NCBI RefSeq assembly: GCF_000186245.1 | Contig: NC_014935.1 | Coordinates: 1,984,001-2,048,000, forward strand | Source of the DNA: Nitratifractor salsuginis DSM 16511 | Lineage (GTDB): Bacteria > Campylobacterota > Campylobacteria > Campylobacterales > Sulfurovaceae | DNA: 64,000 nt | Reading direction: 5' to 3' | Shown: piece by piece, positions 4,992 to 61,201 of the stretch | Layout: the number at the start of each line of letters is the position of its first letter | Numbering within the stretch: the stretch's first letter is position 1 | The notes under the pieces: generated by a model | Told to the model about the DNA's origin: nothing | The model's input: the letters and a program-made list of their open reading frames with translations, nothing else | Databases searched by the model: none | Made by a program: the position numbers and the translations under genes

Positions 4992-6353
4992 TTGTGGAAG
5001 AAAATTTCGGAATATTTTAGCACTTACTTATTAATGGGGGCTTTGCTTACGGCGCTCTCGGGCTCCGCCTTTCTCTACCTCGCCTGGCTGGGTTGGGAAC
5101 CCCGATGGCTCGATACCCTGCTGGCACTGATCTTCTACTGGCGGCTTTTGGGCTCCGATCGTCGTCACTGGTTCTGGACCGGATTTTTCCTCGGGCTCCT
5201 CTGGTTCTGGTGGCTGGGAGTGAGCTTCATCCACTACGGCCACCCCGGGGCGCTACCTTTCGTCGATCTCACCGTTGCCCTGATCTACGCCCTCATTTTC
5301 TGGATTTTCGCCTTCACTGCGGAGACAATGACAACCTGGGCAAAATACTTCCTAAAAAAATTCTCAATTCTCAATTCTCAATTCTCAATTCGTAGCTCAT
5401 GGTTAAAAGCCGCAGCGCTTTTAACCATGAGCTACGCCCATCCCTTCGGTTTCGACTGGTTCAAAGCCGAACTCCCCCTCGTCCCAGGCTATTTCGGAGT
5501 GGATAAGATCTCCTTTGCTTCACTGCTTTTCGGACTCTGCCTGGCACGGGAGGCGTGGGAAGCCTATCATCAAAAGCGGCACAGATATGCCGTTGTACTG
5601 GGGCTTCTGGGCACCCTGTTCCTGCTCAGCGCTCTGAATCCGAGCCGGGTGGAGGTGCGGCCCCAGGACCCGGAGGGCCGCATCCTGCTGGCCCCGACCC
5701 ACATCCCGATCGAAGCGAAATGGAGACCTGAAACCCTCTCTTCCCAGATCGGTGACGTCTTTCAAGCCATCGACCGTGCGATCGATGCCCACGCTTCCCT
5801 GGTCGTTCTGCCCGAATCGGTGCTTCCTCTTTTCCTCAACCGGGAACCGCAACTCCTTCGCGCTCTGGAGGATCGCTCGAAAAAGATCGATATTCTCCTG
5901 GGAGCTCTCTATCGGGGGGCGGACGGGCAGAACCGCAACTCGGCCTATCTCTTCCATCAAGGCTCCTACCGGGTCGCGAACAAGGTGGTACTGGTCCCCT
6001 TCGGCGAAGCCAACCCCCTGCCGGACTGGGCGAGCCGATGGGTCAACAGGCTCTTTTTCGACGGGGCACCCGATTATCGCCCCGCTTCCCACTCCACCGA
6101 CTTTCTCATCGGCGGCGTCCGTTACCGCATCGGAGTCTGCTACGAAGGGAGCAGCGAAATCCTCTACAAGGACCGCCCCTCCCATCTGCTCCTTTTGAGC
6201 AACAACGGCTGGTTCCACCCTTCCATCGAGCCGACGCTGCAGCGGCTTTTGCTGGAATATTATGTGCGGAAATACGGCACCGCCATCTACAACAGTGTCA
6301 ATATGGGGCCTTCTTATCTGCTTCGCCTCCGAAACAGAGGAGAGACGGACTAA
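4992..6353 (+). CDS. lnt: Apolipoprotein N-acyltransferase (Lnt)
   Basis: 453 residues. Lnt adds the third acyl chain to the N-terminal cysteine of outer-membrane lipoproteins. An N-terminal block of membrane helices (to about 210) is followed by the nitrilase-like domain. The catalytic triad is visible as Glu275 in VVLPES, Lys331 in NKVVLVPFGEANPL and Cys383 in RIGVCYEG. The TTG at 4992 has GGAG 8 nt upstream; an ATG at 5034 is the alternative start and would leave room for a promoter. Odd feature: residues about 124-145 are encoded by an intergenic-type CAATTCT tandem array and a 19-bp perfect hairpin (5361-5435). This is an in-frame insertion between membrane helices. Confidence 0.93.
   Translation: MWKKISEYFSTYLLMGALLTALSGSAFLYLAWLGWEPRWLDTLLALIFYWRLLGSDRRHWFWTGFFLGLLWFWWLGVSFIHYGHPGALPFVDLTVALIYALIFWIFAFTAETMTTWAKYFLKKFSILNSQFSIRSSWLKAAALLTMSYAHPFGFDWFKAELPLVPGYFGVDKISFASLLFGLCLAREAWEAYHQKRHRYAVVLGLLGTLFLLSALNPSRVEVRPQDPEGRILLAPTHIPIEAKWRPETLSSQIGDVFQAIDRAIDAHASLVVLPESVLPLFLNREPQLLRALEDRSKKIDILLGALYRGADGQNRNSAYLFHQGSYRVANKVVLVPFGEANPLPDWASRWVNRLFFDGAPDYRPASHSTDFLIGGVRYRIGVCYEGSSEILYKDRPSHLLLLSNNGWFHPSIEPTLQRLLLEYYVRKYGTAIYNSVNMGPSYLLRLRNRGETD
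5361..5435. repeat. CAATTCT tandem array plus 19-bp perfect hairpin inside lnt
   Basis: Four to five copies of a TTCTCAA heptamer (5361-5390) are followed at once by a perfect inverted repeat: stem 5392-5410, loop 5411-5416, stem 5417-5435, with no mismatch in 19 bp. The same heptamer array recurs in gaps at 44.1 and 44.85 kb. Here it lies in the lnt reading frame and is translated as FSILNSQFSIRSSWLKAAALL. The right stem encodes residues that fit the normal Lnt helix (TMSY before AHPFGFDWFK), so the left stem looks like an inverted copy of host sequence. Confidence 0.9.
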
Positions 6354-17117: not shown

Positions 17118-17238
17118 ATGAATGGTGAATAATGAATGATGAATGATTATGGTTGGTTTTGCTTTGCAAAACACTCCTTTTTAATAAAATTGCTTTTCGT
17201 AAAAAAGCATACCAAAACCATTCACCATTAGCCATTAA
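17118..17238. repeat. Inverted pair of short tandem arrays with hairpins (dnaB-ispG gap)
   Basis: The left arm (17118-17150) is built of GAATGAT/GTGAATA units and runs via a GGTTTTG-type motif into the hairpin GTTTTGC-TTT-GCAAAAC (17157-17173). The right arm (17211-17245, running slightly past this feature) is the inverse, with units read on the minus strand as GAATGAT/TAATGG, then TTTTGG, then a second hairpin at 17191-17209. The right arm overlaps the ispG stop codon. No gene is seen in the gap. Confidence 0.8.
17191..17209 (-). terminator. Likely intrinsic terminator of ispG
   Basis: On the minus strand TGCTTTT / AAAAGCA forms a 7-bp stem with a 5-nt loop, followed by ATTTTATT. It lies 30 nt after the ispG stop and forms part of the tandem-array element in this gap. 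Confidence 0.5.
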
Positions 17239-18328: not shown

Positions 18329-18508
18329 ATGAGGAATGAGGAATGAGGAATGAGGAATTTTGGAAACGAAACGTCGTTTCGATTTTTATTGACATAAATT
18401 GCCTTTGCTATATGATGTTAAAACAATATCCAACTTTTTTGGAAGCCCATAGCTTTACGGAGTAAAGCTTACCAAAACTCCTCACTCCTCACTCTTAACT
18501 CCTCACTT
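18329..18508. repeat. Inverted pair of short tandem arrays with hairpins (ispG-priA gap)
   Basis: Left arm: four GAATGAG units (18329-18357), then ATTTTGG and hairpin CGAAACG-T-CGTTTCG (18367-18381) followed by ATTTTTATT. Right arm (minus strand): GTGAGGA-type units (18476-18508), then GTTTTGG and hairpin AGCTTTAC-TCC-GTAAAGCT (18451-18469). The two arms are inverted versions of one module. The 213-nt gap has no gene. Confidence 0.85.
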
Positions 18509-42548: not shown

Positions 42549-42640
42549 GAATAACCGAGCAACCGAGTAATGAGTAACCGAATAACCGAGTAACCGAATA
42601 TTAAATTCGTAACACTTAGCACGTAACACGAAAAGAAAGG
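42549..42640. repeat. GTAACCGA-type tandem array after ppk
   Basis: Five to six degenerate copies of an 8-nt unit (GAGTAACC/GAATAACC) from about 42549 to 42600, then GTAACAC/GCACGTAACAC units to about 42632. The rest is the ribosome-binding region of the next gene. No hairpin was seen in this copy. Confidence 0.8.
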
Positions 42641-43196: not shown

Positions 43197-43268
43197 TATT
43201 TTGGTGAATGGTTAAAGAAGCATTTTGAAAAAATGCCATCCTTAATCATTCACTATTAACCATTAACC
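43197..43268. repeat. Inverted array module sharing one hairpin
   Basis: Left arm TTTTGGTGAATGGTTAA, then the perfect hairpin GCATTTT-GAA-AAAATGC (43220-43236), then the inverted right arm TTAATCATTCACTATTAACC (43241-43260). The two arms are near-complements, so the whole 70-nt unit could fold. No gene is seen in the gap. Confidence 0.8.
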
Positions 43269-44718: not shown

Positions 44719-44900
44719 CAAGTCGCAAGAGAATCGGTCATTGGATAGAAATTGGATTTGGGGCATTAGGGCATTGGGCATTAAGACATTAGGAAAAATT
44801 CAAGCGCATTCCCCTATCCAAAATCCAAAATTCTCCATTCTCCATTTCCTATTCTCAATTATTCGGTTACTCATTACTCGGTTGCTCGGTTACTCGGTTA
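44719..44900. repeat. Mosaic tandem-array block, right copy flanking the toxin-antitoxin pair
   Basis: Same order as the block at 43957: GTCGCAA, GGTCATTGG, GGATTTGGGGCATTAGGG with CATTAGGG units, then CCAAAAT units (44817-44832), CTCCATT and CAATTCT units (44831-44860) and GGTTACTC units (to 44900). A GGGCC-TGC-GGCCC hairpin (44705-44717) lies just before it, after the toxin stop. Confidence 0.85.
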
Positions 44901-44910
44901 TTCATAATGT

Positions 44911-44943: not shown

Positions 44944-46263
44944 ATGTCAAAAAAACTCCATCTCGTCAGCCTCGGCTGCACCAAAAACCTGGTCGACAGC
45001 GAAGTGATGCTGGGCAAGCTGGCCGACTATGAACTCAGCGACGAGCCTGCCGAAGCCGATGTGATCATCGTCAACACCTGCGGCTTCATCGAAGCGGCCA
45101 AGGAAGAATCGATCGCCACGGTCCTGGATCTGCACGAGCGGCGCAAAGAGGACTCTCTGCTGGTGATGAGCGGCTGCCTCAGCGAGCGCTACAAGGAGCA
45201 GCTCCAAAAGGAGATGCCCGAGATCGATATCTTCACCGGTGTCGGGGATTATGAACGCATCGACGAGCTGATCCGCCAAAAGCAGAGCACCTTCAGCCCC
45301 CAGGTCTACCTGGCCACCGAAAAATCCCCCCGGCTCATCACCGGCTCCAACTACCACGCCTACATCAAGATCGCCGAGGGGTGCAACCAAAACTGCTCCT
45401 TTTGCGCCATCCCCTCCTTCAAAGGGCGGCTCCAGTCCCGCACCCTCGACTCCATCGTCGCCGAAGTCTCGGCCCTGACCGCCAAGGGCTTTTACGATTT
45501 CAGTTTCATCTCCCAGGACAGCTCCAGCTACGGGCGGGACCTGGGGATGAGAGACGGGCTCATCGACCTCATCCGCCACATGGAGCAGATCCCCGGTGTT
45601 CGCAGCGCCCGGATCCTCTACCTCTATCCAAGCACCACCAGCTTCGAGCTCATCGACGCCATTGCCGACTCCCCCGTCTTCCAGACCTACTACGATATGC
45701 CCATTCAGCACATCGACGACCGGGTGCTCAAGACAATGAAGCGGGGCTTCGGCGAAGCCAAAACCCGGGAGCTTTTGGAGGCGATGCGCTCCAAAGAAGG
45801 AAGCTTCGTGCGCACCTCCGTCATCGCCGGCCATCCGGGAGAGAGTGAAGAGAGTTTCCGAAAACTCTGCGACTTCCTGGAAAGCTTCGGCTTCGACCGG
45901 ATCAACGTCTTCGCCTACTCCAACGAGGAAGAGACCGCCGCTTACGAAATGGAGCAGCTCCCCGAAGAGGTCATCACCCGGCGCACCGAGATCCTGGGAG
46001 AGATCGCCCAGCGCTCCCGGGACGCCTCTCTGGAGAGGATGATTGGACGCCGCTGCCGCCTTGCCATCGACGGCCCCAGCCAGGAGCACGAATACCTCCT
46101 CTCCGCCCGCCCCCTACTCTGGGCCCCCGAGATCGACGGCGAAGTCCTGGTCAACGACACCAACGATCTCGACGTGAAGATCGGAGGGCTCTACCAAGGA
46201 AAGATCACTGAAAAGGCGGGGGAGTATTTGCTCGCTTCGCTCGAAACTCCGCTAACCGAGTAA
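44944..46263 (+). CDS. rimO: Ribosomal protein S12 methylthiotransferase RimO
   Basis: 439 residues. The UPF0004 domain starts with KLHLVSLGCTKNLVDSEVMLGKL and VNTCGFIEAAKEES, giving two of the three Cys ligands of the first cluster, and SGCLSERY the third. The radical-SAM motif is EGCNQNCSFCAIPSFKG (CxxxCxxC). YPSTTSFELIDAI and a C-terminal TRAM domain follow. It adds a methylthio group to Asp88/89 of ribosomal protein S12. The stop lies at the edge of the next tandem array. Confidence 0.96.
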   Translation: MSKKLHLVSLGCTKNLVDSEVMLGKLADYELSDEPAEADVIIVNTCGFIEAAKEESIATVLDLHERRKEDSLLVMSGCLSERYKEQLQKEMPEIDIFTGVGDYERIDELIRQKQSTFSPQVYLATEKSPRLITGSNYHAYIKIAEGCNQNCSFCAIPSFKGRLQSRTLDSIVAEVSALTAKGFYDFSFISQDSSSYGRDLGMRDGLIDLIRHMEQIPGVRSARILYLYPSTTSFELIDAIADSPVFQTYYDMPIQHIDDRVLKTMKRGFGEAKTRELLEAMRSKEGSFVRTSVIAGHPGESEESFRKLCDFLESFGFDRINVFAYSNEEETAAYEMEQLPEEVITRRTEILGEIAQRSRDASLERMIGRRCRLAIDGPSQEHEYLLSARPLLWAPEIDGEVLVNDTNDLDVKIGGLYQGKITEKAGEYLLASLETPLTE

Positions 46264-46310
46264 CCGAGTAACCGAGTAATGAGTAACCGAGTAACTGAAT
46301 ATCCAGTCGA
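46256..46310. repeat. GTAACCGA tandem array, left arm around the four-helix-bundle gene
   Basis: Five or six GAGTAACC-like units begin in the last codons of rimO (TAACCGAG) and run across the start codon of the next gene, so its first residues (MSNRVTEYP) are repeat-encoded. The inverse array (GGTTACTC units) lies at 46680-46715, right after that gene. Confidence 0.85.
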
Positions 46311-46659: not shown

Positions 46660-47694
46660 ATGAAAAATTCCCCCACCGATCGGTTACTCGGTTACTCGGT
46701 TACTCGGTTACTCATTAATAAAAACAATTTACTCGCTTTCTCCCACGGCCTGGACTCCACCGCTCTCTACCACCTCCTCAAAGAGTCTGACATCCCCTTC
46801 GACATCGCCCTGGTCAATTACGGCGTGCGGCCCGAAGCGGAGGAGGAGGAAGCGGCGGCGAGGGAGTTGGCCCGAAGAGACAAGCGGCGGATTTTTGTCG
46901 CTCACGCTCCCGGGTTCCGTAGCAATTTCGAAGCCGAGGCACGGCGCTTTCGCTACGACTTTTTCGAATCCCTCATCGATGAGCACGGTTATGAGAATCT
47001 CCTGACCGCCCATCAGCTCAACGACCGTCTGGAGTGGATGATGATGCGGTTGATCCGCGGGGCGGGAACGGTGGAGCTGGCGGGGATGGAGGCGGTTGCG
47101 AAGCGTTTCACCGCTTCAGGCACCCCCTATCGGCTCATCCGCCCCCTGCTGGAGACTCCAAAGTACGAGCTGGAGCACTATCTGCGCTCACGGGGGGTCG
47201 AATGGTTCGAGGACAGCAGCAACGCCTCCGACACCTACGAGCGCAACCGCCTGCGCCCGCTCCTGGAACCGCTGGTCCGCCGCCACGCCTCCGGCATCGC
47301 CCGGAGCTTCGACTATCTGGCGGAGGACGCCGCCTACCTACGCCGAGGCTACCGGGAGCTCTACCGGGAAAAGCTCCTGCGCATCCTCCAAGTTTCAGTC
47401 CCTTCGCTCATCCCCCTGGCGACCGCGGAGACCCTCAAAAAATTGAGCTATCTTCCGAGCTATAAAGAGCGGGAGCTTCTGCGCCAACACTCTTCTCTGG
47501 TTCTGGGCAGGCGCTGGGCGGTGGAACGACGGGGGGATCTCCTCTTCATCGCCCCCTATCACGACGATGTAACGATGGAGAAAGCCTTTCGGGAGCGCTG
47601 CCGCCTCTTGAATATCCCTCCAAAGATCCGCCCCTACCTCAGCCTCCAAGGGATCGAACCCGAGCACCTGCCCCTACCCTCTGCTGAGGGGTAA
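46660..47694 (+). CDS. tilS: tRNA(Ile)-lysidine synthase TilS
   Basis: 344 residues, short form. The PP-loop is LAFSHGLDSTALYHLL (28-33); the usual SGGxDS has His at the second position. TAHQLNDRLEWMMMRLIRGAG and the IRPLLETPKYELEHYLRSRGVEWFEDSSNASDTYERNRLR block are diagnostic for TilS. It modifies C34 of tRNA-Ile (CAU) to lysidine, an essential step for AUA decoding. The N-terminal 7-20 residues are repeat-encoded. The C-terminal tRNA-binding domain is minimal. Confidence 0.9.
   Translation: MKNSPTDRLLGYSVTRLLINKNNLLAFSHGLDSTALYHLLKESDIPFDIALVNYGVRPEAEEEEAAARELARRDKRRIFVAHAPGFRSNFEAEARRFRYDFFESLIDEHGYENLLTAHQLNDRLEWMMMRLIRGAGTVELAGMEAVAKRFTASGTPYRLIRPLLETPKYELEHYLRSRGVEWFEDSSNASDTYERNRLRPLLEPLVRRHASGIARSFDYLAEDAAYLRRGYRELYREKLLRILQVSVPSLIPLATAETLKKLSYLPSYKERELLRQHSSLVLGRRWAVERRGDLLFIAPYHDDVTMEKAFRERCRLLNIPPKIRPYLSLQGIEPEHLPLPSAEG
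46676..46720. repeat. GGTTACTC tandem array, right arm, inside the 5' end of tilS
   Basis: Four near-perfect 8-nt units (CGGTTACT) from 46680 to 46715. They are the inverse of the array at 46256-46310. They are in the tilS reading frame and encode DRLLGYSVTRLLIN. No ATG, GTG or TTG lies between the array and the PP-loop in frame, so translation through the array is needed. Confidence 0.88.
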
Positions 47695-47698
47695 ACCT

Positions 47699-49516
47699 TC
47701 ACCCGTTTTCTCGACTCTCCAGCCACTTCGCCAGGAGATAGAGGGGGAAAAGATGCTGACGGAACTTTCCCCGGTCCGCCCCCCTCGCCAAAAACTCCAG
47801 CTGCTCCTCGTTAAACAGCCCGCTTCTCTCCTGCAAGCGCCAAAGAACTTCGATGCCGTCTTCTTCTAGGATCCACTCGATAAAGGGGTAGTTGAGCCCC
47901 TTTTTCTTGCGATGGACGATCTCAGCGGGAAGATATCTTTGGGCAACCATCTTGAGAATTCCCTTGGGGGCGGTGTCGATACGTAGCTGGGGGTCGATGG
48001 CAAAGGCCGTTTCGATCACCCGGCGGTCCAAAAAGGGGGAGCGGGCTTCGATGCCGGCGGCCATACTGACCCGGTCCTGCTTGACCAGATAGACTTCTCC
48101 CAGGAGCACCTTCAGATCCAGATAGCTGTACCAGTCGGCGCTATGGCTCCGTTTCGAAGCTTCGAAACGCTCCAGCCAGGGGCGGATCGCCTCCAGGTTG
48201 GCCCCGTCCCGGACATTCTGCCGCAGGAGGCGGTTGAGCTGCAAATCGGTATAGAGCTCTGCCGTGGAGCGGAAAATAGGCGTATCCTCCCAGGCCCTTT
48301 TGTACCACTCCCACTCCTTGTTCTCCGAATAGTGGGCCCGGAAGTAGTGGCGCAGCCAGTTGCGGTAGGGGAGTTCTCTCGCCTTCTCCACGGCGAAATA
48401 CTCCGGATAGGTGCGGTACCCGAGGAAGAGTTCGTCACTCCCCTCACCTCCCAGGACCACCCTCACCCCCTCTTTTGCCGCCTGGCGCAGCAGGAAAAAG
48501 AGCGGCACCATCGCCGGGTCCCCCAGGGGCTCATCCAGCAGGGGCAGTAACGCCTCCAGCGTCTCGAAGAACTCCCGCTTGCCGAAGGGGTAGACCCGAT
48601 GCTCCGCCCCCAGATGACGGACCGTTTGCTCCGCCCAGTGCGCTTCATCGTATTTATCGTAGCCGGAGAAACTCACGCTGAAGGCCCGCAGAGGCCTCTC
48701 GCTATGATTCGCCGCCAAGGCCGCCACCAAAGAAGAGTCGAGCCCTCCGCTGAGCAACACCCCCCACTCCACCTTTTGCGGGATCCTCGAAGCCACCGCC
48801 TCATCAAGCGCCTCTTCCACCGCGCTTGCCGCCGAAGTTTCCTTCCGATAAAGAATGGGGCCCTCCAGCCAGGGATCGTAAATGGAATTTTGGATTTTGG
48901 ATTTTGGATTTTGGATTTCAAATAAAAACTCAATATGCTCGCCTGGTTCCATCTTTTTTACTTCCCGGTCCAGTGTATGAGGGGCGATTGTCGATTGAAA
49001 ACCGAGGTACTGGATCAGGTGCCGCCGTTCGAGATGGAAGGGTTTGAGGGTGTAGAGGGCCTTGGCTTCGCTGGCGAAGGCGAAAAAATCTCGGCTATTC
49101 AGATAAAAAAGGGGTTTTTTACCCGACGGGTCGCGAAAGAGGGAGACCTTCCCCTCAGCGGGGCGGAGGATGGCGATGGCATACATCCCCCGAAGTCGCT
49201 CCACAAAGGCTGCGCCCCATCGCCGCCACGCCGCCAGGAGCACCCGGCTCTCCGAATCGCCTTCGATCCCAAGTTCATCGGCCAGAGCGCGGACATTGTA
49301 GATCTCTCCGTTGAAAAGCAGAACTTCCCCACCCTCTTCAAAGGGCTGCTCTATCGCTTCGCCGGCACTGGCGATCGCCAGGCGGTGGACCCCCCAGGCT
49401 CCCTCGTCACGCAGGATCAAGTGGCTGTCGTCGGGGCCACGATGGCTCAGGCGATCAAAGGCCTCCCTCGCCTCTTTGGATTCATAGCGGCCGAGAATGC
49501 CGAAGATCGCACACAT
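47699..49516 (-). CDS. asnB: Asparagine synthase (glutamine-hydrolysing)
   Basis: 605 residues. Glutaminase domain with Cys2 nucleophile (MCAIFGILG), RLAIAS and LFNGEIYN; synthetase domain with the PPi loop VLLSGGLDSSLVAALA (about 253-268) and GEGSDELFLGYRTYPEYF. It makes asparagine, or amidates another aspartyl/sugar substrate in some clusters, from glutamine and ATP. Residues about 199-212 (FEIQNPKSKIQNS) between the domains are encoded by a TTTTGGA tandem array, not by family sequence. It converges with tilS. Confidence 0.92.
   Translation of the reverse strand: MCAIFGILGRYESKEAREAFDRLSHRGPDDSHLILRDEGAWGVHRLAIASAGEAIEQPFEEGGEVLLFNGEIYNVRALADELGIEGDSESRVLLAAWRRWGAAFVERLRGMYAIAILRPAEGKVSLFRDPSGKKPLFYLNSRDFFAFASEAKALYTLKPFHLERRHLIQYLGFQSTIAPHTLDREVKKMEPGEHIEFLFEIQNPKSKIQNSIYDPWLEGPILYRKETSAASAVEEALDEAVASRIPQKVEWGVLLSGGLDSSLVAALAANHSERPLRAFSVSFSGYDKYDEAHWAEQTVRHLGAEHRVYPFGKREFFETLEALLPLLDEPLGDPAMVPLFFLLRQAAKEGVRVVLGGEGSDELFLGYRTYPEYFAVEKARELPYRNWLRHYFRAHYSENKEWEWYKRAWEDTPIFRSTAELYTDLQLNRLLRQNVRDGANLEAIRPWLERFEASKRSHSADWYSYLDLKVLLGEVYLVKQDRVSMAAGIEARSPFLDRRVIETAFAIDPQLRIDTAPKGILKMVAQRYLPAEIVHRKKKGLNYPFIEWILEEDGIEVLWRLQERSGLFNEEQLEFLARGADRGKFRQHLFPLYLLAKWLESRENG
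48884..48920. repeat. ATTTTGG tandem array inside asnB
   Basis: Four copies of the heptamer TTTTGGA on the plus strand (48888-48918). In asnB (minus strand) they encode QNPKSKIQN. Similar CCAAAAT units are found in gaps at 44.82 and 61.27 kb. The insertion lies in the linker between glutaminase and synthetase domains and keeps the frame. Confidence 0.88.
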
Positions 49517-54982: not shown

Positions 54983-55310
54983 GAGTAACTAGAAACTAGT
55001 AACAAGTAACTAGAAATTTTAGTTTCTCCTACTTTGCCAAGTTTCATTCAAAAGAGGAAGCATATATGATAGTTGGGAACTCTTGGTGGTTTCTCCCCGA
55101 CGACAGTTTTTCGCCCTTTCTTCTTTGGGTTCGTTTCTCTTCTTCTTTGTGGCGAAACAAAGATCAAATCAATTAGCAACCGAGTAATTGAGAATTGAAA
55201 ATGGAGAATTATGGTTTGAGAAGAATTCAAAGGAAATAGTCTCAAAAAATCTTAGCACGTAGCACATAGCACTTAACACAGCTCTATTCTTGAGACTTGA
55301 GGGGCGAAGC
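54983..55310. repeat. Gap of about 390 nt filled with tandem-array modules
   Basis: GTAACTAGAAACTA-type units (54983-55015); then the dispersed element (55099-55162); GTAATTGA/GAGAATT units (55180-55215); GTAGCACATAGCACTTA units (55257-55278); hairpin GGGGC-GAA-GCCCC (55300-55312); and GTTGCGACTTGCGACTT units up to the stop of the PabC-like gene. No ORF with gene-like features in the gap. Confidence 0.75.
55099..55162 (+). repeat. Dispersed element, copy A
   Basis: Shared core TTCGCCCTTTCTTCTTT, GGGTTCGTTTCTCTTCTTC and TTTGTGGCGAAACAAAG. This copy lacks one CTTT unit and the 3' GAAGAAAGAAAGG part seen in the other two. The CTTTGT-GGCGA-AACAAAG part can form a small hairpin. Confidence 0.85.
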
Positions 55311-55333
55311 CCCGTGCTTGCGACTTGCGACTT

Positions 55334-55979: not shown

Positions 55980-56066
55980 GACGACAGTTCTTCGCCCTTT
56001 CTTCTTTCTTTGGGTTCGTTTCTCTTCTTCTTTGTGGCGAAATAAAGAAGAAAGAAAGGAACAAAG
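55980..56066 (+). repeat. Dispersed element, copy B
   Basis: Full-length copy: ACGACAGTTCTTCGCCCTTT, then TTCTTTCTTTGGGTTCG, TTTCTCTTCTTCTTTGTGGC and GAAATAAAGAAGAAAGAAAG. The two ends are imperfect inverted CTTTCTTCTTT repeats. It lies in the 223-nt gap between the PabC-like gene and pit. Confidence 0.88.
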
Positions 56067-57893: not shown

Positions 57894-58571
57894 ATGGAGC
57901 GAAGACCCCTCATTCTCATCATCGAAGACGAAGAGGATATCCTCGAACTGGAGGAGTTTCATCTCCAAAACGCCGGGTTTGAGACGATGGGGTTCCTCTC
58001 TTCCAGAGGGGTCCGGCAGGCATTGGAAGAGGAAGAGGTAGCCCTGATGGTCGTCGACCGCAACCTCCCCGGCGAAGAGGGGAGCGAACTGATCGCGGCT
58101 CTGCGCCGGGAGGGCTTCGGCCTGCCGGTGATCTTCGTCACCGCCAAAGACCGGGACGAAGATGTGGAAGAGGGCTTTAGGTGCGGCGGTGACGACTATC
58201 TGCGCAAACCCTTCAATATGAACGAGCTGGTCTGGCGGGTCAAAGCCCTGCTGCGCCGCGGCCAAGCCTCGGAGGAGGAGATCCTCCGCCACCGCGCGTT
58301 GAAGATGGATCTGCCGGCACGCCGGATCGAACTGGAGGGGGAGGAGCTGAGCCTCACCCGGCTCGAATTCGAGCTCCTGCGCTATTTCCTGGAAAACCCC
58401 GGCCGGGTCATCAGCCGCGAAGAGCTCCTCGATGAAGTCTGGGATGATAGCGGGGAGCGCGGAGAGAAAACGGTCAACGTCGCCGTCAACCGCCTCAAGA
58501 AGAAGATCGAACGCGACCCCGAAGCCCCCACCATCGAAGCGGTCAGAGGGGCGGGATACCGTCTATGCTGA
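57894..58571 (+). CDS. OmpR/PhoB-family response regulator
   Basis: 225 residues. Receiver domain with LILIIEDEEDILELEEFHL (acidic pocket), the phosphoacceptor Asp in LMVVDRNLPGEEG near 52 and the Lys in FVTAKDRDEDVEEGF near 105. The C-terminal winged-helix DNA-binding domain includes LSLTRLEFELLRYFLENPGRVISREELL and VNVAVNRLKKKIERDP. Overlaps the kinase gene by 7 nt. Probably controls pit and itself; phosphate as signal is inferred from the context. Confidence 0.93.
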   Translation: MERRPLILIIEDEEDILELEEFHLQNAGFETMGFLSSRGVRQALEEEEVALMVVDRNLPGEEGSELIAALRREGFGLPVIFVTAKDRDEDVEEGFRCGGDDYLRKPFNMNELVWRVKALLRRGQASEEEILRHRALKMDLPARRIELEGEELSLTRLEFELLRYFLENPGRVISREELLDEVWDDSGERGEKTVNVAVNRLKKKIERDPEAPTIEAVRGAGYRLC

Positions 58572-59980
58572 AGCTCTCCCAACTCTTCTTCCGCCGGAGT
58601 GCGTTGATCCTGACGGTGACCTTCATCCTGGCGGCGCTTACCGGTTACTACCTCCTGCGGCAAATGGAGATCGACACCCACGCGCGTATGCTGCGCAACA
58701 GCCTGACGATCCTCGAGCAGGAGCTCCAAACCCTCCCTCCCGCGAAGATCCCCGCCACCCTGCGCACCATCCACCAAAAGACCGGCATCCGCATCACCGT
58801 CATCGCCCCCGACGGAAAGGTGCTCTTTGAGAGCAACCGCTCTCCCGTGGGGATGGAGAACCACGCCACCCGCCCCGAGATCCTCCAGGCCAAAAAATCG
58901 GGATGGGGCGAAGCGGTGCGCCACTCGGCCACTCTGGATGAGGACCTCCTCTATATCGCCCACCGGGAGGGCGACTCCTACCTCAGAACCGCCTACTCCC
59001 TGGAGCGCATCCACCGTCAGCTCCTACAGCTCTGGCTCAAAGCCCTGGGCTTTTTCGCCCTGATCCTTCTGCTGATTCTCGCCCTGAGCCTCCGGCTCAA
59101 TCGCCGAATCCAGGGCGACAGCGACCGCCTCCGCCGCTCCCTGGAGCAGCTATTGGAAAAAAATTACGACGCCGAGATCGATACGGTCGAGTGCTGCAAA
59201 GAGTTCGCCCAGATCCGCAAGATGCTCCGGAAGGTCTCCAAAAAATTGGCGAAACGGGAGCGCCAAAAGGCCAAATACACCAAAAAACTCAAAACCCTCA
59301 CCCGGCGCCAGAGCGACATCATCTCCGCCATCAGCCACGAATTCAAAAACCCCGTCGCCGCCATTATGGGCTACGCCCAGACCCTCCGGGAGAGCCGAAA
59401 CCTCGATCCCCAGATCCGGGAGCGTTTTTTGGAGAAGATCCACAGCAACGCCGAGAAGATTTCGGCGATGATCGACCGCCTATCCCTCGCCATCCGCCTG
59501 GAGAACCGGGGCTTCACCCCCAAGCGCAACCGTTTCCCCCTCTCTCAAGTCATCAGCTCCGTGCGGGAGACCCTGCTGCAGAAATACCCGGGCCGGGAGA
59601 TTGTTTTGGAGTGTGAACCCGTCGAGCTGGAAGCCGACCGGGATATGATCGAGCAGGCGGTAATGAACCTGATAGAAAATGCCCTGAAATACTCCGCTGA
59701 CAAGGTGATCGTCCGCTGTGATGCCGAAAAACTGGAGGTGATCGACCGGGGAGAAGGGATCGAGCCTGGAGACCTGGAAAAGATCACCAAAAAATTCTAC
59801 CGCGTCGACCGCCTCAGCTGGAACAACTCCATCGGCGTAGGCCTCTACATCGTCAAATACATCCTCCGCCTCCACGGAACGGAGCTCGAAATACGCAGCG
59901 TCCCCGGAGAGGGGTCGGTCTTTGGGTTTTCACTGCGGGGGATGAAAGAGAGGAATGAGAAACTAGAAACTAGAAACTAG
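58565..59980 (+). CDS. Sensor histidine kinase
   Basis: 471 residues. Two membrane helices (about 14-36 and 159-178) enclose a periplasmic domain of about 120 residues. After a HAMP-like linker the dimerisation domain has the phospho-His in SAISHEFKNPVAAIMGYAQTL near 258; the ATPase has VMNLIENALKYSADKVIV (N box), VIDRGEGIEPGD (G1), and NNSIGVGLYIVKYILRLHG (G2). The C-terminal tail (RNEKLETRN) is encoded by a GAAACTA tandem array, so the repeat has reset the stop codon. Confidence 0.93.
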   Translation: MLKLSQLFFRRSALILTVTFILAALTGYYLLRQMEIDTHARMLRNSLTILEQELQTLPPAKIPATLRTIHQKTGIRITVIAPDGKVLFESNRSPVGMENHATRPEILQAKKSGWGEAVRHSATLDEDLLYIAHREGDSYLRTAYSLERIHRQLLQLWLKALGFFALILLLILALSLRLNRRIQGDSDRLRRSLEQLLEKNYDAEIDTVECCKEFAQIRKMLRKVSKKLAKRERQKAKYTKKLKTLTRRQSDIISAISHEFKNPVAAIMGYAQTLRESRNLDPQIRERFLEKIHSNAEKISAMIDRLSLAIRLENRGFTPKRNRFPLSQVISSVRETLLQKYPGREIVLECEPVELEADRDMIEQAVMNLIENALKYSADKVIVRCDAEKLEVIDRGEGIEPGDLEKITKKFYRVDRLSWNNSIGVGLYIVKYILRLHGTELEIRSVPGEGSVFGFSLRGMKERNEKLETRN

Positions 59981-60016
59981 AAATTTTGGTTTGCGTTGCT
60001 TTGCAACGCTTTTTTT
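59953..60016 (+). terminator. Tandem array plus intrinsic terminator of the kinase operon
   Basis: GAAACTA units (59957-59982) are followed by ATTTTGG and then a perfect hairpin GCGTTGC-TTT-GCAACGC (59993-60009) with a run of seven T. This is the clearest intrinsic terminator in the window and shows that the array-plus-hairpin module can end transcription. Confidence 0.9.
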
Positions 60017-60072: not shown

Positions 60073-60165
60073 GGACGTCAGTGCATCGCCTTTTCTTCTT
60101 TCTTTGGGTTCGTTTCTCTTCTTCTTTGTGGCGGAACAAAGAAGAAAGAAAGGAACAGAGGAGAA
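60073..60165 (+). repeat. Dispersed element, copy C
   Basis: TGCATCGCCTTTTCTTCTTT, then CTTTGGGTTCGTTTCTCTTC, TTCTTTGTGGCGGAACAAAG and AAGAAAGAAAGGAACAGAG. Almost identical to copy B over about 75 nt. It lies between the kinase terminator and the convergent mltB stop. CTTCTTTGT-GGCGGA-ACAAAGAAG forms a 9-bp perfect hairpin. Confidence 0.88.
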
Positions 60166-60187
60166 CCGAGCGTCGGAAATTAGCGGC

Positions 60188-61201
60188 CTAATGCCGGCAT
60201 CGCAGCGCTTCGGCATAGAGCGCGATCGTCACTCCGTAACGTTTCGACGCATTGTAAAGGGTAATGATCCGATAGTTCCGGTCTCCCAGGAAAAGATCCC
60301 ACTTCCTGCCGTCACGCAGGCGGAGATAGTAGGCACTCTTCCCCCCGAAGAGCTCGGCGGGAGTGACACCGTAGCGGCGGAGGGTCGCCAGGGGGTAGAG
60401 GCTACGGTAACCGCTGCGAAGGCGCAAGAACCCCTCTCCCCTGTGTCGGGCGCGCACCAGCGTCTTCCGGTTGTTTTTCCATCCGTTTCGGTGCAAAAAG
60501 TTGGCAATCGTTCCGATACAGTCGGCGATAGAGTCGGGATCTTTTCGCCCGTCTCCGTCGAGATCCACTCCGTAGCGCAGCTGAATGGAAGGGACCTGCT
60601 GCGCACACCCCATCGCCCCGGCGAAGGAACCCCGCAGTTTCAGGGGATCGAGCCGGTTCTTTCGAGCCAGGATCAGCAGCTTCTCCAACTCTCCCCTGAA
60701 AAACTTCTGCTTACGGTTGGGGTTGAAGGCCAAGGTCACCAGTGAATCCCAGACCGGATATTCGTGGCCGTAGCGCCCGAACTTGCTCTCCACCCGGATA
60801 AAAGCGGTGATGATCTTGGGAGCGACCCTATAGCGCCGGGAAGCGAGCGAAAGCCAACGGCGGTAGCGTGACATAAATTTGACACCGAGCCTGACACTTT
60901 CGTCAACCAGGATCCTGCTTTTGTAACGGTGCCAACTGTAATCGGTAGCCCCCACCTTGTGCCGCCCCCGGTAACGGGCCAGCGTTTCGGCCTGATGCCG
61001 GGCCCGCTTCAACAGCCCAAGAAGTTCCCCTTCGTCAAAGCCGTAACGCTGATGCATCCTCTCAGCAAAAGCACGCGCCGCCGGCAGACGGGAGTAGTCG
61101 ATCCGGGCCGGGGAAGGCAAGGTGAACAGCAAGAGCAGAAGCAGAGAAAAGGGAAAAAAGTGGGTAGTCCGTAGTGGGTAGTGGGTAGATTTTTTCATCA
61201 T
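60188..61201 (-). CDS. Lytic murein transglycosylase B-like protein
   Basis: 337 residues. The MltB-type catalytic Glu is in IITAFIRVESKFGRYG (Glu138), followed by LRGSFAGAMGCAQQVPSIQL, YGVDLDGDGRKDPDSIADCIG and the WKNN motif region. It cleaves glycan strands of peptidoglycan with 1,6-anhydro ends. The N-terminal signal is preceded by STHYPLRTTHF, which is encoded by a GTAGTGG-type tandem array, and no other start lies between it and the hydrophobic core. Two ATGs at 61201 and 61198 compete; the ribosome site is weak. Confidence 0.9.
   Translation of the reverse strand: MMKKSTHYPLRTTHFFPFSLLLLLLFTLPSPARIDYSRLPAARAFAERMHQRYGFDEGELLGLLKRARHQAETLARYRGRHKVGATDYSWHRYKSRILVDESVRLGVKFMSRYRRWLSLASRRYRVAPKIITAFIRVESKFGRYGHEYPVWDSLVTLAFNPNRKQKFFRGELEKLLILARKNRLDPLKLRGSFAGAMGCAQQVPSIQLRYGVDLDGDGRKDPDSIADCIGTIANFLHRNGWKNNRKTLVRARHRGEGFLRLRSGYRSLYPLATLRRYGVTPAELFGGKSAYYLRLRDGRKWDLFLGDRNYRIITLYNASKRYGVTIALYAEALRCRH

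Follow-up and report, generated by a model that had tools for sequence, protein, structure and literature searches.

At the end of a sensor histidine kinase gene of Nitratifractor salsuginis sits a 64-base element (59953-60016) made of four 7-letter units and a small hairpin. It belongs to a family whose members lie at gene starts as well as gene ends and, in most copies, have the heptamer array next to the gene and the hairpin on the far side. The reading that we tentatively favour, while giving it somewhat less than an even chance, is a strand-symmetric element of gene borders that would act as an outward stop and would be renewed by DNA templating; a DNA-level by-product without function is a close second. 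Outward intergenic heptamers as such are already known, and it is the composite with hairpin and foldbacks that looks new. Unless another sequence is named, coordinates refer to the window, that is, the whole 64-kb stretch of DNA that we analysed.

The copy at the kinase gene

The kinase gene (58565-59980, forward strand) encodes 471 amino acids with the Pfam domains HisKA, HATPase_c and sCache_like and the C-terminus ...ERNEKLETRN*. Its last codons and its TAG stop (59978-59980) lie inside the heptamer array (59953-59980, forward strand), as the earlier note had proposed, and the array begins exactly at the position given there. The array had been described as copies of GAAACTA; a repeat array is indeed present, but we read it as four heptamers that include one GAATGAG (59953-59959) followed by three AAACTAG (59960-59980), the unit boundaries being our own reading. 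The purine-rich strand is directed away from the kinase gene. The array is followed, on the same strand, by the terminal unit AAATTTTGG (59981-59989; family consensus GAATTTTGG), by TTT, by the inner hairpin GCGTTGC-TTT-GCAACGC (59993-60009), whose 7-bp stem around a TTT loop covaries across the family, and by a terminator-like T7 run (60010-60016), seen in the sequence and in a terminator scan. The convergent neighbour is an SLT_2 transglycosylase gene (60188-61201, reverse strand).

The array is not a product of chance; allowing at most one mismatch, GAAACTAGAAACTA occurs three times in the window, twice within the copy at 59953-60016, and not once in 100 shuffles. It leads, as claimed before, into a structure with the shape of a textbook intrinsic terminator (59993-60016), with seven pairs, five of them G-C, and T7 directly after them. 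The terminator scan picks up this hairpin with its T7 run, but a lone match of this kind is weak evidence, since the scan returned 21 sites between 52000 and 64000 where 13.5 +/- 4.0 were expected. RNA folding recovers the hairpin as well (z -2.1; 9 of 200 shuffles were equally stable), and an Rfam scan of the 64-kb window gave one tRNA and nothing else.

Architecture and placement of the family

We surveyed arrays in 464 kb of the N. salsuginis genome (the 64-kb window and 20 stretches). Exact period-7 arrays with a run of at least 14 were found 24 times, as compared with 0 in one Markov shuffle; merging arrays of period 7, 8, 14, 15 or 16 gave 106, of which 88 are intergenic and 18 lie within called genes. 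Many of the exact period-7 arrays share the GAATTTTGG ending and a hairpin 2-4 nt beyond it. From an alignment (A1) of 17 copies, with stems partly chosen for perfection, we built a covariance model. The GG is invariant in these copies and the hairpin begins 2-4 nt past it; 6 of the 7 pairs of the inner hairpin are changed on both sides, which is an upper estimate because the seeds were partly selected by their stems.

With up to 150 candidates scored per genome, the model finds at least 86 matches in the N. salsuginis genome. Among 13 genomes of the genus, nine (N. salsuginis included) have from at least 42 to at least 122 matches each, and the other four have 0-1. Matches occur in 49 of 120 genomes of the family, and a class-wide draw of 200 genomes gave matches in 2, N. 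salsuginis and one family member. In the window, model matches lie at the 3' end of a priA-like gene (18442-18490, reverse strand), at the 5' end of gcpE on the strand opposite to the gene (18345-18392, forward), at the 3' end of gcpE (17182-17230, reverse) and at the 5' end of the gene after gcpE (17134-17182, forward); a weaker copy lies at a gene 5' end (43210-43258, reverse).

For the size and placement of the element we examined 69 copies from N. salsuginis, referred to as own copies, and 113 from other species (121 rows less 8 duplicates), the latter chosen by score, by a 23-mer or by orthology and thus not a random sample. Four full units stand ahead of the terminal unit in 42 of the 69 own copies and in 69 of the 113 others, and three or five units in 17 and 26 copies, respectively. 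The unit sequences vary (GAATGAG, GAGTGAA, AAATGAG, TGGTGAA, TAACTAG and others). In 180 of the 182 copies we could score an inner stem, and 1219 of its 1260 pairs are Watson-Crick and 14 are G-U, in a scan that takes the register with the most Watson-Crick pairs and requires 5 of 7. Such sequence patterns suggest a constraint behind the four-unit peak and DNA-level upkeep behind the near-total Watson-Crick pairing; the scarcity of G-U pairs is easier to reconcile with DNA-level templating than with selection on RNA. An attempt to recognise the strand of a selected RNA from G-U versus A-C mismatches gave 14 vs 6 over all copies, too few to tell, and 12 vs 4 (6:3 and 6:1 by class) in a hand-made subset; such subsets comprise 84 or 91 of the 121 other-species rows and follow no fixed selection rule.

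Gene borders were taken from a codon-usage caller made for this analysis, so that start codons are approximate. Among own copies, 32 have the array facing a gene 3' end and 33 a 5' end, with 4 unplaced; in the non-random set from other species the numbers are 67, 43 and 3, a larger 3' excess than in a hand-made selection (49 vs 40). The array side is the one closer to a gene in 55 of the 63 own copies for which both neighbours were called. Where two modules share a gap, the arrays are outside and the hairpins inside in 11 of 11 own pairs and 16 of 20 pairs from other species, the remaining 4 close pairs breaking this order. On the outward strand G exceeds C in 24 of 29 arrays at 3' ends and 20 of 23 at 5' ends when the array lies within 40 nt of the border, and in 55 of all 72 intergenic period-7/8 arrays (31 of 39 and 24 of 33). 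The arrays thus show both the intergenic period of seven and the outward G-rich strand of intergenic heptameric repeats. Stop codons in all three frames are read outward in 16 of 24 own arrays at 3' ends, 27 of 29 own arrays at 5' ends and 84 of 95 arrays from other species (inward in 3, 2 and 9); composition accounts for most of this, as the fraction in a hand-made subset (0.89) barely exceeds that of unit-shuffled arrays (0.82).

The element has a fixed order of parts: the four heptamers come first, then GAATTTTGG, a short hairpin that covaries and a tail rich in T. In the outward-stop reading, an RNA polymerase that moves out of the gene, whichever way it travels, would run into the hairpin and the T-run, and a ribosome leaving the gene would run into stop codons in all frames, since a unit length of 7 is not divisible by 3. 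At the end of the kinase gene the element supplies the stop codon and would probably also serve as an intrinsic terminator of the sense transcript; in copies at gene starts these parts would work on antisense RNA instead. Slippage may renew the array, with selection on its overall length, and template switching between the inverted arms may renew the near-perfect stems. The polarity, the four-unit size, the pairing of the hairpin, the persistence at orthologous sites and the presence of tails in both border classes all speak for this reading. On the other hand, a terminator would need neither the four-unit length nor the junction foldbacks described below, T-runs are often weak or missing (for example, at the kinase site of G007), and some modules are found within likely operons. 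Modules separate, for example, moxR from the DUF58 gene and pdxJ from pdxA; we presume both pairs to be operons, and if they are, only weak or bypassed terminators would be tolerated there.

We also considered a long RNA rod formed by the paired arrays of one gap and rejected it, because the similarity of the two arms did not exceed permutation and thus gave no sign of co-evolution (own pairs, p 0.34, n = 11; other species, p 0.25, n = 17; pooled without stratification, p 0.05).

Orthologous sites and junction foldbacks

Kinases with 76% and 75% identity to that of N. salsuginis are found in G001 and G007, respectively, and by eye both genomes have a module at the kinase site and the same convergent neighbour. 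In G001 the array reads GAATGAG plus three GAATTAG, provides the TAG stop and precedes an identical hairpin, with T6 two bases later. In G007 the units are of the GTAACGA/GTAACTA type, the stop taken from the array is TAA and the stem has 6 bp, with no T-run. The G002 kinase has a TGA stop in a GAATGAG-type array, where the contig ends. No module was seen at the kinase site of G005, G006, G009, G010 and G011, which have other sequence there; the purine-rich tail in G010 may be a decayed array. G008 has a distant homologue, and only more distant kinases came up in G003, G004 and G012. Judged by these sequences, the stop-bearing array turns over at this site while two sister species keep the hairpin.

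Like the kinase site, the moxR-DUF58 and VTT-protein loci keep module and inner hairpins under altered heptamers, with exceptions (G011 at moxR-DUF58). No modules were found at the moxR-DUF58 and VTT-protein loci of module-poor species, and by eye no more than about 75 nt lie between moxR and the DUF58 gene in the module-free G003, G008 and G012. These locus comparisons are free of the bias introduced by selecting seed hairpins and module ends for their stems.

In some copies the junction between gene and array is itself an inverted repeat, with one arm at the gene's own end. We scored such foldbacks, within 6 nt of the array edge, by their base pairs, less 3 for one mismatch. Of the 69 copies, 13 scored at least 9; so did 2 of 340 borders without an array and, for windows moved into the gene, 0-2 of 68. 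An earlier test with other settings (at least 7 bp) gave 13 of 72 versus 5 of 346. Perfect foldbacks reach 18 bp in N. salsuginis, and the foldbacks of G001 reach 20 bp.

At the 3' end of moxR, G007 has an 18-bp perfect stem formed by a coding arm and its copy, with the stop codon in the loop. The stem has 14 bp in G000 and 12-14 bp with one mismatch in G001, G002 and G006, and it is weak in G009 and G011; of the module-free species, G003 and G008 have none and G012 has 5 bp. Both arms in G000 differ from those in G007 at three matching positions, so that the arms track synonymous changes in the gene. At the 5' end of the DUF58 gene, stems of 7-10 bp occur in seven module-bearing species, several of these stems being dissimilar in sequence (the G005 contig ends there), and the module-free G003, G008 and G012 have 0, 6 and 0 bp. 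At the 5' end of the VTT gene the stems reach 20 bp in G001, 18 in G000, 17 in G011, 14 in G005 and 8 in G006; they are weak in G002, G007 and G009 and absent in G010, with 5 bp in G003 and none in G008. Judged by eye, the ribosome-binding site or the start codon falls within the stem at several 5' ends. The VTT-domain gene, for which alignments with close relatives begin at residue 6, may owe a new in-frame ATG to an 18-bp foldback at L121 1060-1110 (genome about 534165-534215).

It is possible, although we rank it below the outward stop, that the whole element is a by-product of DNA metabolism: slippage and template switching at inverted repeats would build and repair arrays and palindromes in gaps, gene borders would limit their spread, and there would be no selected function. 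The gene-specific foldbacks at the array edge, whose arms follow synonymous gene changes, are what such a process would leave behind, as are the rarity of G-U pairs and a period that is fixed while the unit sequences are free. Template switching is described as homogenising the arms of inverted repeats in the accessible text of two papers (PMC8604942, PMC7202029). What tells against the by-product is that the number of units peaks at four instead of spreading broadly, that 2-4 nt separate GG from the hairpin in the 17 aligned copies, and that sites persist between species.

Other readings and known heptamer repeats

The earlier note had suggested that the modules are kept because they end transcripts. 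This suits the terminator look of the kinase copy and is in so far partly supported by the sequence; it does not suit the placement of the family, which is not confined to the sense strand after genes but is divided almost equally between gene ends and starts among own copies. Ending RNA is unlikely to be the sole job of the element. In its narrow form, with each copy kept for ending the sense transcript of the upstream gene, we consider the idea improbable. In its favour, other species have more 3' than 5' placements, and own 3' copies are slightly T-richer: at least 6 T in 8 positions are found in 18 of 28 copies at 3' ends versus 12 of 30 at 5' ends (Fisher p 0.07), with mean counts of 5.64 and 5.10. 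Moreover, 3' ends without arrays are rarely terminator-like (3 of 128; 5' ends, 0 of 172), and terminator-like tails occur in 20 of 32 modules at 3' ends and 19 of 33 at 5' ends, where modules were preselected by their hairpin and a shorter stretch was scanned. However, the T-runs of the two classes do not differ significantly (Mann-Whitney p 0.12 for the mean counts). A TTTT tail follows 19 of 28 perfect-stem own copies at 3' ends and 15 of 30 at 5' ends, and, among all copies, 55 of 95 and 40 of 73 (95 of 168 in total; p 0.75). Read in the sense direction, none of the 30 own copies of the 5' class has a U-run behind its hairpin, the G007 kinase copy has no T-run at all, and modules separate moxR from the DUF58 gene.

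A broader but doubtful variant is a border insulator that recurs in several phyla and handles outgoing and incoming RNA differently. Outgoing RNA would meet the hairpin, the T-run and three-frame stops, and incoming untranslated RNA would meet a G-free, C-containing track of four heptamers able to load Rho, which is encoded in the N. salsuginis genome. The outward strand of 151 arrays has 0.9% C, and 131 of them have no C outward and hence no G inward, where the covariance model itself prefers C-poor arrays over part of their length. The inward strand carries about two YC dimers per heptamer, equal to unit-shuffled arrays, so that the Rho part is backed by composition only. If true, the insulator would explain why the same part is found with the same polarity at both gene ends, and why composition, period and length alone are kept.

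A non-autonomous mobile repeat of the REP/REPIN or MITE type, spread by transposition and now fixed, would account for the many similar matches in module-rich genomes, the inverted pairs and the patchy presence in the family. It would also account for the presence of the exact 23-mer junction, GAATGAGGAATGAGGAATTTTGG, in Clostridia, Hymenobacter and Doudnabacteria, which by record title make up 9, 4 and 1 of the 41 stretches of public genomes that contain it, the other 27 being Campylobacterota. Of the 28 matches in Campylobacterota, 26 have a stem of at least 5 bp that begins within 5 nt of the 23-mer, and of the 14 other matches 7 do, as compared with 98 of 2050 random positions; 15 of the 28 and 9 of the 14 have an opposite array no more than 400 nt away. 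Like REP/REPIN sequences, the modules are short extragenic palindromes with many copies and inverted pairs (accessible text of PMC8266576 and PMC3116915); unlike them, they have a heptamer array attached, no regular GTAG and no consistent Y1 transposase. The Y1_Tnp profile had no match in 5 of the 9 module-rich genomes (G002, 75% complete; G006 and G007, 88%; G010, 96%; G005, 99%) and was present in 3 of 4 module-poor genomes of the genus. The tetranucleotide that goes with REP/REPIN, as defined in the accessible part of PMC8266576, lies near the junction in 2 of 69 copies as GTAG and in 1 as GGAG. Shared sites with site-specific hairpins between species at the compared loci and the outward polarity also disagree with a mobile repeat, which we regard as unlikely. 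A RAYT/REP origin was rejected on the transposase and GTAG counts, a reverse-transcriptase (telomerase-like) origin of the heptamers for lack of an RVT_1 match in the N. salsuginis genome, and a phage-borne element because the exact 23-mer and one degenerate form had 0 matches in viral contigs.

Intergenic heptamer repeats occur in several phyla, and their function is not established in the accessible text of PMC4692102 and PMC4679880. In Xanthomonas and Nostoc, GGGAATC and GGGGA(C/T)T heptamers show the outward rule, stop-codon overlap, convergent pairs and a four-unit preference, and transcripts start or stop at such repeats more often if these can form G-quadruplexes, with no established function in the parts accessible (Rehm et al. 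2015, PMC4692102). Here, by contrast, the units differ between sites and species, and GGG occurs in 5 of 131 arrays (34-46 nt) and fewer than four GG in 43 of 131, so that the arrays lack four GGG tracts and a three-tetrad G-quadruplex cannot explain the four units. The G-quadruplex account of the four-unit preference is weakened, because units without G-runs keep the same length. In the accessible text of Rehm et al. (PMC4692102) we found no counterpart of GAATTTTGG with covarying hairpin, T-rich tail and gene-specific junction foldbacks; the word "terminator" is absent from it and "hairpin" appears once, in a reference. The TAACTGA repeats of marine Beggiatoaceae, also present in Cyanobacteria and Bacteroidetes, are likewise intergenic arrays at gene borders with stops in three frames, but in the accessible text they favour one unit, point mostly towards start codons and come without a hairpin module (MacGregor 2015, PMC4679880). 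The heptamers described here form the gene-facing half of a composite whose size is nearly constant and which persists at the compared orthologous borders while the heptamers themselves are rewritten. The heptanucleotide repeats of the cyanobacterium Calothrix are named STRR. Like the present arrays, they are tandem heptanucleotides in a bacterial genome; they are mentioned in PMC4692102. In the literature searched, which left subscription papers mostly out of reach, we found no earlier report of a heptamer-hairpin composite or of junction foldbacks, no array strings, and no paper with both "Nitratifractor salsuginis" and "tandem repeat".

Several other repeats were seen along the way. In four Hymenobacter stretches (L156, L171, L190 and L192) the same heptamers and GAATTTTGG form closely facing arrays that lack the inner hairpin and, by eye, are flanked by matching short inverted sequences. 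Heptamer arrays within predicted genes lie at 5359-5391 and 48887-48918 of the window, at L007 8737-9285 and at L016 2464-2494. Octamer arrays (TAACCGAG) are mixed with heptamers in opposite orientations at 42552-42597, 44858-44905, 46253-46295 and 46680-46713, and some overlap predicted genes. AAGTCGC/CTTGCGA heptamers surround a G+C-rich hairpin at 55298-55332 and in gaps of L009, L010, L012, L017 and L021; further array families have the units CTCAACG, GTGTTAA, TCATTGG and AATAACC. G000 contains seven 143-aa Y1_Tnp frames with identical scores (e.g. C1:1266380-1266742), apparently a recent IS200-like expansion. Finally, a further element recurs in gaps, namely a long pyrimidine/purine inverted repeat (CTTTCTTTGGGTTCGTTTCTCTTCTTCTTTGTGGCGGAACAAAGAAG...), which occurs at 55110-55165, at 55985-56065, at about 19110-19200 of L005 and, between the kinase and SLT genes, at 60090-60170.
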